In this document: positions 28,197-31,682 of the stretch, in pieces
Layout of the letters: the number at the start of each line of letters is the position of its first letter
How positions within the stretch are numbered: the first letter of the stretch is position 1
Source: Favolaschia claudopus
Taxonomy: Eukaryota; Basidiomycota; Agaricomycetes; Agaricales; Mycenaceae
NCBI GenBank assembly: GCA_037176885.1
Contig: JAWWNJ010000018.1
Span: 2,046,001-2,110,000 of the forward strand
Reading direction: 5' to 3'
Length of the DNA: 64,000 nt
The notes under the pieces: generated by a model
Databases searched by the model: none
Told to the model about the DNA's origin: nothing
Seen by the model: only the letters and a program-made list of their open reading frames with translations
Program-made: the position numbers and the translations under genes

Positions 28197-28786
28197 TAAG
28201 CAGATCAAGGCTAGTTTCAAAACTGAGGGTCGCAACTTATCATTCTCTGGACTCGCCATTCACAAGGATTGCCAACAAGACCAAATTGGGCGTAGGAACT
28301 GGGTTGATGATTATCGGACCGTTGCCACGTTATCCTGATCAATCCTTTGGCTCTTCACGTCCGAATATATCCCATCTACAAGAATCAGCCCAAAAAATGG
28401 CTCTCCTGACCAGGGGTTGTTCGCCTTTTCCAAATTCTGTGGGCTTTGTGCGACCCGGTGGCAAATTTTTGACGACATCCAGTTTTTGTGTTGAATACTG
28501 AAAGCTTCAGACAAACAAATGCTAGGACCTTTTTACATATGTTATAGAGGATATCCAGGGGTGAATGTGTGTCGCAAAGATTGGTTGTATAAAAAGGGTG
28601 ACGTGGGAGGAAAGGACTAATCATGTAGTCAGTTGATGTCGGCATGTCGTGTACCATAGCCGCTTGCAGCGGCTCGAGCACGTTACAGGGATTCCTGTAA
28701 ATAATGACAAAATAATGACAATCACAAATAAATTTTTTGGCGCTTCCCGAAAAGGAAATTCGCGTCCTTCTCTTCCCTACGCCCCC

Positions 28787-29752
28787 ATGGTCAATCGGCG
28801 CATCAGTTCTGACCTCAAGGAGCGCGCATTAGCTCTCTGGGAAGCCGGATGGTCGCGTGAAGACATCTGTTATGCATTTCATGTCTCGCCTCGCAGTCTG
28901 TATCGCTGGCGCTCTATCTTCGAAGAATTCGGCAAAGTCACCAAACCTCCGTCTCCCTTCCGCGGCCGTGAGCGAATTATCAGCCTAGGAGTGCTCAATG
29001 CTGCCAAGGAAGTCTACTTCCACGATTCTTCCGTGATGCTAGACGAACTAGCGTGGCATCTGGCAATTCACTATGATATCGCCATCTCGATCTCTGCGCT
29101 GCAGGCTACTCTGGCTCGGGCAGGTCTAACGCGCAAGGTGCTTCAAACAATTGCGGTAGAGAGAGACGAGGCACAGAGAACTGAATATCGAGGATGTATT
29201 CGTGATCCTACGTCGTTTTCTGGAACGGGGATTGAGTTTGTTGCAGTGGATGAGTCGAGCAAAGACGAGCGCACTCTCGCCCGACATCACGGCCGAGCTC
29301 CTGTTGGCCAGCCTGCCATCTACCCTCATCAATTCGTGCGCGACGATCGCTACACCCTCACGGCGCGACGATCGCTACACCCTCACCGCCGCCATGAGTA
29401 CGCAAGGATCCATTGCAACTCGAATTGTGGAAGGATCCATGGATGCGTATCAATTTTTTTCGACTTTATTGTCGAAAATGTGGTGCGCAAACATTCTCTC
29501 TATTCATCTTGTCCTCGCTAACTGACCCAAGATGCCCGTTATGAACCCTTACCCCGACGCTCAAAGTGTGCTCGTAATTGACAACTGCCGGATACATCAC
29601 TCGGATGTACTCGAAGAAGTCCTGAATGACAATGGTATGAGTTTCAACCGCTATTGAAAGTCGTTTGACACGTTCTTAGGTATCATGATACTCTTTCTTC
29701 CGCCTTACTCACCAGATCTCAACCCGATCGAAGAGTCGTTCTCGACATGTAA
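28787..29752 (+). pseudogene. Tc1-like DD34E transposase, with indels
   Basis: Starts at ATG 28787 (MVNRRISSDLKERAL). N-terminal helix-turn-helix: ALWEAGWSREDICYAFHVSP. DDE domain: EFVAVDESSKDERTLARHHG (first Asp), VLVIDNCRIHHSDV (second) and LPPYSPDLNPIEESFS with Glu 35 residues after the second Asp, the DD34E spacing of Tc1. Introns: GTGCGC to CCAAG (about 29484-29530) and GTATGA to TTCTTAG (about 29637-29681). A 25-bp tandem duplication at 29338-29387 and two extra T in the T7 run at 29454-29460 shift and then restore the frame, so a stretch of about 40 residues is garbled. The end after ESFSTC is unclear. Probably inactive. Confidence 0.85.
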
Positions 29753-29928
29753 GTGATCGATGGCAGAGGGATGGTTTCGACATGCAGGTTACATTTGGTA
29801 GTGTACAAACAGCTATGATTTCAGACATGTATCAAGAAAAAGATTGTAATTACAAGTATCTGGATGAATGCAACGGAACAACAGTTCGGAAAGCGACGAG
29901 AGTAAAGGATAGGTACCACAATCATCCA
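29753..29928. other. Junction between the two genes of the Tc1 element
   Basis: No coding signal beyond a possible third intron of the transposase (GTAAGTGATCG to GACATGCAG). The two genes converge here. Confidence 0.4.
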
Positions 29929-31530
29929 TCAAACGTACCGGAGGCGAGATCGCTCTTGAAGCAATGCAGAAGTTGTCTTGTCTCCCGGACGGAATCCCAC
30001 ATCCTTCAACAGACTAGTGTCACCTTCGGTGAGGCCGTAGTGTTCGCAAAATTGGTCTAGCGAGACGCTGTGACGCTTGATTGGGGACGGAGGGGCACTG
30101 CGCGTGGGAGCTGGGGCTGGGGGAGTGATAACAGTGTTGGCAGCAGGGAGAGGAGCGGGATGAGCGGTCGACAGCCGAGGGAACAATGACGGAATTCCGC
30201 CGTTTGACATGAGGGATGCGAGGAAGATGTCGGTTATAGAGAGCGCAGGAGTCGGAGTGGCAGCTGGAGGAGCAGCAGTGATAGCGGGAGCAGGCGGAGC
30301 GGCATTTTCGACAGCTGCGGCGGTATCGTTCAGGGTAGCGGGGGCGGAGGAAATATTCTTGATACGTTGTTGAGCGTCAAAGAAACGCGATGCAGGGGCG
30401 GTCTTATGATCGGTCAGGTTCTGAGACTGCAATAAAGCTGCATGAGATCGAGGTTACGAGAAAGAAACAAAGGAGACAATCTATTGATGCAGCCCACACG
30501 TCAAGACGTGTCTTATTCAGGTCGAAACAAAAGCCAGTCAGCGGTTGCTGATAGATACGGAGAGTGGGCCAGCGAGGGTCGTTGCCGATCGGATATGTCT
30601 AATTTTGCACGTTCAGCACGGGTAGCATTGTTGAAGCTAATCTGATGACGTTGAGCCGAAACCCATAGAACAAGGAGCATACTCTGACGCACCTTCTGCT
30701 CCATGACCGAGTCACTTGGTCCAGCGCGTTCGAGTTCGGAGTAGTCAAAGGTAGGGGTGGGCTGTCTTCCGTCTCCCAAGGCTAGCGAACATGTTTTGGA
30801 TCAGTGCCCCGCAATTTGCCACATAAACAGTTACGCACGGTGGGGTCATCCATAGGTTTCGTCGGTGGTGGCATATACAGCACGACGACACGACTCGCCT
30901 TCTTCTTCACATCATCCACCATTGCCTCATAACCAATCGCCTTCCCAAGAGGGGACTTCTCCCCGCTCGCCGGTTTCTTCGTTTTCCAAAGGATTTTCGA
31001 CTGGTTGATGTTCTGTACGAGGCACGGGAGTTCGGAGGCGATTGCAGACAAGAGTTCATCATAGGGGGCGGTCACAGGGAGTATAATGGGTCCTTTTTGA
31101 AGCGTATCATCATCATTTGCTTTCGCAGCGCGCTTTTTCGTAGGTGGGGGGGGCGGGCTTTGCGATGTTGATGTAGTATGTGATCTTGGGCGGAGGAGGC
31201 TCGTCCGTGTCGGAAATTTCTTCCTTGGCTTTAGCCTTCCGCTTCGATGGAGGCTTATCCTCGTTCCCAACGTCATTCGAGTCCTTGCGTTTGCGTTTCG
31301 TCGTCTTCTTGCTCGCGTTTTTCTTGGCTTGCGCAGCCATGATTTCGGGCGTCTTTACCAAGAATTTGTTGCATGCTTTGTGTGGAGGCACTTTGTTGCA
31401 TGCTCAGTGAGAAACAGCATTCGGAACGATGAAACGAGGTCAAAATACCGTCAGGATTGTCCGCAATTACGCCCTCAATCATCCCATTGAGATCCTTAGC
31501 AGTGAAACGGGTCAAGGACACTAATGTCAT
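29929..31530 (-). pseudogene. Second gene of the Tc1 element: basic, Pro/Ala-rich protein of unknown function
   Basis: Starts at ATG 31530 (MTLVSLTRFTAKDLNGMIEG). The first intron is 31403-31448; splicing gives ACNKVPPHKACNKFLVKTPE followed by a nuclear-signal-like KKTTKRKRK and PSKRKAKAK. Then come KITYYINIAKPA, a frameshift at the G8 run 31146-31153, LPCLVQNINQSKILWKTKKP, YEAMVDDVKKKASRVVVLYM, a further shift, YPIGNDPRWPTLRIYQQ, LNKTRLDVWAASI, an intron, an Ala/Pro linker, and a SAM-like end HSVSLDQFCEHYGLTEGD and LLKDVGFRPGD. I recall multi-copy Agaricomycete hypothetical proteins with this block order but no assigned function. At least two to three frameshifts and an atypical C-terminus make this copy decayed. 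Confidence 0.6.
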
Positions 31531-31682
31531 CGTCCGAATCGTCAGAGGTCATAGCGGTGATTCAAGATGAGAGAAAGAAGAGAAGGGCTCAAGAAGAAAG
31601 CACGGTACAGAGAGAGACGCGAATTTCCTTTTCGGGAAGCGCCAAAAAATTTATTTGTGAATCTGATTGTCATTATCTTTTT

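Follow-up and report, generated by a model that had tools for sequence, protein, structure and literature searches.

What is a second, unrelated gene doing between the inverted repeats of a Tc1/mariner transposon? Elements of this superfamily are the textbook case of a one-enzyme, usually single-gene cut-and-paste transposon, a simplicity on which tools like Sleeping Beauty depend. The question is raised by a locus of Favolaschia claudopus, a fungus of the family Mycenaceae, contained in a stretch of 64,000 nucleotides (the window, C18:2046001-2110000) of an assembly of 264.6 Mb in 460 contigs. An earlier note on this DNA had described a Tc1/mariner element with a transposase and a second gene, here called g2, and had considered captured cargo, a regulator of transposition or a host family spreading in this way. 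Our analysis confirmed that the window holds a two-gene Tc1/mariner (DD34E) transposon in decayed form. This copy belongs to a real, old, two-gene branch of the superfamily, which is probably a two-protein system rather than a single enzyme. We consider it likely that the branch is an ancient two-protein lineage, in which g2 would serve as a nuclear, self-assembling accessory factor of the element and not as cargo, a role close to the regulator proposed before.

Both genes were found together between the same ends at other places in the genome. Loci were taken from a search for the terminal inverted repeats (TIRs), in which 40 of 116 candidates were scored, and from matches to either gene. Eighteen of them were read with both TIRs: 15 hold transposase and g2, three hold neither and none holds just one of the two. 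Six of the 15 two-gene loci had been chosen by their TIRs alone (L013, L014, L015, L021, L024, L025), five by a g2 match (L029, L030, L031, L035, L036) and four by a transposase match where no g2 had been detected (L043, L046, L047, L048); L013 and L014 are one insertion present in two contigs. The check proposed in the earlier note, a search for further copies in which identical TIRs enclose both genes, came out in favour of a real element. The three loci with neither gene are 0.7-0.8 kb long, carry the same TIRs and resemble miniature inverted-repeat transposable elements (MITEs; L026, C18:1701580-1702302; L027, C14:345089-345798; L028, C86:262940-263773). The TIR search gave further paired ends about 0.7 kb apart.

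The element is 3,067-3,320 bp long in the six copies measured end to end. Over their full length L014 and L015 share 98.5% identity, and they lie in different flanks; both genes have therefore moved together. An empty site was found for L025, which reads CCCTAT-TA-CAGG...CCTG-TA-ATC where contigs C207 and C80 read CCCTAT-TA-ATC. Since these two carry the uninterrupted site with a single TA, the duplication of a TA target site is shown. A third related copy, C227, reads TTGA at this position, and L014, the other of the two loci tested, gave no empty site. The whole element, two genes enclosed by TA-flanked inverted repeats, is the unit that moves. Twelve g2 exons (on C20, C52 (twice), C54, C56, C86, C99, C148, C153, C188, C253 and C53) are 97-100% identical to those of L031, and every one of them has a transposase converging on it from less than 4 kb away; this is perhaps the most recently active sub-family in the genome.

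The pairing was also counted over the whole assembly. The g2 exon encoding a domain similar to PB1 (query 30782-31150 of the window) gave 41 matches, 32 of them with a transposase within 4 kb, and all 32 are convergent. Four queries, with fragments within 1.5 kb merged, led to 67 g2 loci and at least 136 transposase loci; at least 44 of the 67 are linked to a transposase within 4 kb, where 0.28 would be expected under random placement, and the orientation is convergent (tail to tail) in 44 of 44 pairs. These counts are lower bounds, taken from the transposase matches listed, and refer to assembled loci, including haplotype or segmental duplicates (such as C27/C190 and C124/C228/window). A further transposase query linked C176:440743 and C86:1120626 (by hand), again convergently.

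The partnership is old. L046, L047 and L048 had been chosen as presumed single-gene elements, with transposases 31-35% identical to that of the window; each carries a convergent g2 with a basic and acidic start, the PB1-like exon, an exon ending in ...WAAA, a linker and a SAM-like end. In a profile comparison these deep g2 proteins aligned with those of Mycena and Favolaschia over 284 columns (probability 97.3%, E 2.1e-11), and the introns on either side of exons 3 and 4, three in all, are, by eye, in the same places and all in phase 0 in L014 and L046. The idea that g2 is confined to close relatives of the window transposase, which had come from detecting it near 44 of 77 transposases with at least 38% identity and 0 of 59 with less, was overturned by the diverged g2 of L046-L048, as confirmed by the profile comparison. 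Among nine loci fetched for lacking a detected g2 (L041-L049), five have a g2 of full architecture (L042, L043, L046, L047, L048) and two a partial one (L041, L044).

Moreover, the two genes have diverged together. Over 11 two-gene loci, whose transposases diverge to about 30% identity, the correlation between transposase distances and g2 distances is 0.957, a value reached in 0 of 20000 permutations. The FastTree trees of the two proteins agree in 8 of 8 internal splits; because 11 tips allow 34,459,425 unrooted binary trees, such identity by accident is very unlikely. The set left out L013 (copy of L014), L015, L021, L024, L029, L032-L034 and the loci with partial or no g2 or no transposase. 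Identity of g2 was below that of the transposase in 55 of 55 pairs. Transposase and g2 form an old partnership that has co-diverged over the whole depth sampled.

When the L014 exons were mapped onto the window, g2 resolved into five exons on the minus strand, in agreement with the spliced gene that had been read there before. Exon 1 (31451-31552) encodes an acidic start, and exon 2 (30840-31375) a basic stretch resembling a nuclear localization signal, an acidic stretch and the PB1-like domain. Exon 3 (30693-30781) is followed by exon 4 (30483-30641) with an alpha-beta-beta-alpha domain and a VWAA motif at its end, and by exon 5 (29922-30426) with a disordered, proline-rich linker and the SAM-like domain. 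The PB1-like fold is supported by the predicted structure of a homologue (P0003) and its Foldseek search, while the predicted structure of another (P0151) and a structure search suggest a SAM-like fold, putatively of the five-helix kind, for the C-terminal domain. The earlier note had read both the nuclear-signal-like N-terminus and the SAM-like C-terminus well. PB1 and SAM folds pair or polymerise in other proteins. Searches of Pfam and of PDB sequences gave no convincing match for g2, and no recombinase family of Pfam matches it. A search made jointly with the SAM-like domain, whose matches filled the list, yielded no known fold for the alpha-beta-beta-alpha domain. With a dN/dS (ratio of nonsynonymous to synonymous substitution rates) of 0.14 at a dS of 0.32, g2 is under purifying selection. 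In deep clades (L035, L042, P0153; L046-L048) the middle domain contains cysteines and histidines, such as C-x2-H-x4-C-x-H, that could bind zinc and that are lost in the clade of the window.

The transposase has four exons, with splice sites placed by hand. The DD34E triad named in the earlier note was found on the plus strand as proposed: in the spliced L014 protein the alignment places 34 residues between D240 and E275, and the spliced transposases of L030 and L031 show the same spacing. In L025, K replaces the catalytic E. Pfam reports the helix-turn-helix (HTH) families HTH_23 (E 3.1e-7) and HTH_28 (E 6.7e-7) above the cut-off, and DDE_3 below it (a 43-aa piece only). By the defining features tested, namely TA duplication, TIRs, HTH and DD34E, the element is a Tc1/mariner transposon, and it differs in its second gene. 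The transposase matches at L016, L017, L018 and L019 fall into widely separated pieces, arranged alike at several of these loci, which might reflect duplication or mobilisation of a nested element.

The window copy itself is damaged. Inverted arms of 60 nt, 92% complementary, lie at 28714-28773 and 31609-31668 and span 2,835 nt between them. Less damaged copies begin their TIR with TA followed by CAGGG(A/T)TTCCTGTAAATAATGACAATCAC or a close variant, and this comparison places the true ends outside the arms first seen. The left TIR (28686-28773, plus strand) starts at 28686 and includes an 11-bp tandem duplication (28699-28721); the left TA lies at 28684-28685, as judged from the place of TTACAGGG in other copies and from the TA duplication at the L025 empty site, and the right one is lost. 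The right TIR (31609-31676, minus strand) lacks its outermost part and abuts a 350-bp sequence outside the element (31675-32024), which has 47-nt inverted arms, 85% complementary, and is identical in L020 (C228) and L023 (C124). The earlier note was correct about the inverted repeats; the duplication and the loss at the right had misled it about the ends and the position of the TA, and its TIR length of about 50 bp was off as well.

In the window the transposase keeps its catalytic residues in broken frames. Exon 1 (28787-29482, end by eye), with the HTH and the first catalytic D, is interrupted by a 25-bp tandem duplication (29338-29386). Exon 2 (29531-29634) holds the second D (VIDN) and exon 3 (29680-29748) the catalytic E (NPIEESFS), their ends being placed by eye; comparison with L014 shows that about 135 nt are gone near 29755, immediately before the remnant of exon 4 (29759-29801; all plus strand). 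Breaks interrupt the g2 frame in exons 1, 2 and 4, the one in exon 2 at a run of C near 31150; exon 5 has lost about 60-70 nt near 29957. This g2 is already present in databases as P0004, a 423-aa 'hypothetical protein' with adjusted introns (matched by eye). From 30086 to 32692, across its right half and into the flank, the copy matches C124 and C228 at 98% identity. As the match includes flanking sequence, all three go back to a single insertion by duplication and do not count as independent.

How might the two proteins work together? The g2 proteins would self-assemble via their PB1-like and SAM-like ends, and the assembly may bring transposase and transposon ends together or keep the ends open against silencing. 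Transposition would then require, or be tuned by, two element proteins acting in trans, and the MITE-like copies, which have only the ends, may be served in trans by both. That these copies keep nothing but the ends suggests that the needed factors do act in trans. More weakly, we infer that g2 is a nuclear scaffold serving the transposition complex. The fullest version of this proposal, to which we give slightly less than an even chance, would make a large fungal branch of Tc1/mariner, with transposases about 30% identical, two-component since its common ancestor, with g2 as a self-assembling scaffold of PB1/SAM type needed for or controlling complex assembly; g2 would then be, to our knowledge, the first obligate partner of this kind described for Tc1/mariner outside ciliates.

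A number of observations weigh against an obligatory pairing and a PB1/SAM scaffold. Thirteen loci had one TIR in the stretch read and are mostly incomplete: seven have a transposase without a clear g2 (L011, L012, L016-L019, L022), three a g2 without transposase (L020, L023, L032), two a transposase and a fragment of g2 (L009, L010) and one both genes (L034). These one-ended copies look broken, and some may be transposase-only elements whose second end was missed. Two of the nine loci fetched as lacking g2, L045 and L049, have no recognisable g2, and L049 looks truncated. No PB1-exon match lies near 33 of the 77 transposase loci at 38% identity or more. After the further query, 21 of the 67 g2 loci had no transposase found within 4 kb, and none was present at the five unlinked g2 loci that were read (L032, L033, L050, L051, L055). 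Pfam assigns neither PB1 nor SAM to g2. The acidic OPCA motif is characteristic of type I PB1 domains and a conserved lysine of strand 1 of type II. By eye, the OPCA motif is not present in the PB1-like domain, where the stretch reads, for instance, WKPQTPAN or WKTKKPAN; a lysine follows strand 1 in many g2 proteins, not in the deep clades.

The distribution among species has to be read in the same light. In the protein database searches with g2 and the transposase, only the 7997 candidates sharing most words were scored. g2 was found in Favolaschia, in four unnamed metagenome proteins and in 15 species of Mycena (leptocephala, metata, galericulata, albidolilacea, olivaceomarginata, capillaripes, venus, galopus, rosella, epipterygia, maculata, vitilis, alexandri, sanguinolenta and filopes), the named proteins all being called 'hypothetical protein'. 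No named match lay outside these two genera in a search that needs shared 5-residue words and is weak evidence of absence, and no relative was found among viral contigs. Relatives of the transposase, among the 120 matches listed of 322, occur in Dendrothele, Panaeolus, Trametes, Agrocybe, Pleurotus and others. Among the same listed matches, at least 9 of 39 Mycena g2 proteins share species and a contig of identical size in bp with a transposase (324426, 12026201, 56057, 850262, 93834, 88363, 405906, 1435828 and 313530), a linkage by matched contigs and not by read distances, which on megabase contigs would mean little; three of the nine contigs are below 100 kb, and the M. albidolilacea pair has locus tags 826003 and 826006.

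At L045 (C86:544200-547500) a transposase 33% identical to that of the window stands with a convergent glutamine-rich open reading frame (1464-2120, minus strand), whose faint likeness to the g2 middle domain (by eye; profile E 0.41) makes it a candidate only.

The imperfect, damaged ends of the window copy might be taken for two inverted element copies that enclosed a host gene by chance, the outcome by which the earlier note could have been overturned. This explanation, to which we assign next to no probability, was rejected, since independent copies have near-identical TIRs, measure 3.07-3.32 kb in the six cases examined and include one with an empty site. Captured host cargo, hitch-hiking without aiding transposition, would agree with the g2 copies that stand alone. 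Such copies were seen at C249:10231 and C249:82369 (L050, L053, L054) and at C96:62254 (L055), where the stretches read contain neither a transposase nor a TIR of the element; the two on C249 are a segmental duplicate (99.98% over 5.4 kb), and the C249 and C96 copies may be remnants or domesticated. Nevertheless, cargo is very unlikely in our judgement: g2 is present in every one of the 15 gene-bearing two-ended copies read and has a single orientation in all linked pairs, the introns are shared, selection acts on g2 and, strongly against it, the trees are congruent over transposases about 30% alike. Recent capture is made unlikely by the convergent linkage and the trees. Likewise, a host family that spreads through the element is unsupported as the origin of g2, although solo loci without a nearby transposase exist. 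Since cargo would hardly keep one place, one orientation and one tree, we regard g2 as a factor of the element.

The main rival concerns what this factor does: g2 may be an anti-silencing or regulatory protein that assembles on the element and counters methylation, RNA interference or chromatin repression, or limits copy number. The basic and acidic N-terminus and the polymerising type of its domains would suit this task; the Foldseek list for the PB1-like domain also includes the N-terminal domain of SATB1, a chromatin organiser, and g2 changes faster than the transposase in all pairs compared, as arms-race factors tend to do. However, fast change is just as usual for scaffold proteins, and Pfam recognised in g2 no enzymatic domain and none of a DNA-binding or methyl-binding kind. 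We hold this role to be possible and rather unlikely. A different doubt is whether earlier catalogues already contain this pairing, be it as two-protein mariner entries of Repbase or in fungal transposon surveys. A non-autonomous mariner that moved in Marasmius oreades derives from a family, MarorTcMar-18, whose 3,972 bp are long enough for two genes, and the portions of that report seen do not mention a second gene (PMC9674265). Prior cataloguing seems about as doubtful as the anti-silencing role: the g2 proteins found are nameless or 'hypothetical', and no published description of the pairing was found in titles and abstract beginnings of the open literature, a search that did not cover Repbase and a fungal cut-and-paste transposon survey. 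The finding is likely new in print.

Among known systems, DD34E/Tc1 and related Tc1/mariner families have the TA target duplication, inverted repeats and an HTH and DD34E transposase in common with the present element, and usually one gene, where here a conserved second gene is added. Two-component DNA transposons exist in other superfamilies, namely CACTA (TnpA/TnpD), MuDR (MURA/MURB) and Harbinger with its Myb-like partner. They share with our element a transposase plus an accessory protein and a possible division of labour, and differ in superfamily and in accessory folds; the role of g2 is a predicted one. Scaffold proteins with PB1 or SAM domains (p62, PKC-iota/Par6, Ph/Scm, tankyrase) are similar to the N- and C-terminal domains of g2 in predicted fold, whereas no sequence match to them was found, g2 lacks the OPCA motif, and both domains are here combined in a transposon. 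The nearest precedent within the superfamily is Tec/TBE of ciliates, which are Tc1-like with three open reading frames, one in the complement (PMC7325037). Both systems join a Tc1-like DD34E transposase to extra element genes, one on the other strand; Tec/TBE differ in TIRs of about 700 bp, a site-specific recombinase in Tec and their ciliate hosts, while g2 is of PB1/SAM type with no recognised enzyme domain.

A deep, co-diverging and selected partner gene implies that part of Tc1/mariner depends on two proteins for its work or its control. It gives context and a likely class of function to dozens of 'hypothetical proteins' in the annotations of Mycena and Favolaschia, and the question of an accessory protein becomes testable with few clones. 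Furthermore, the element offers a case in which domains of PB1 and SAM type may serve DNA transposition.

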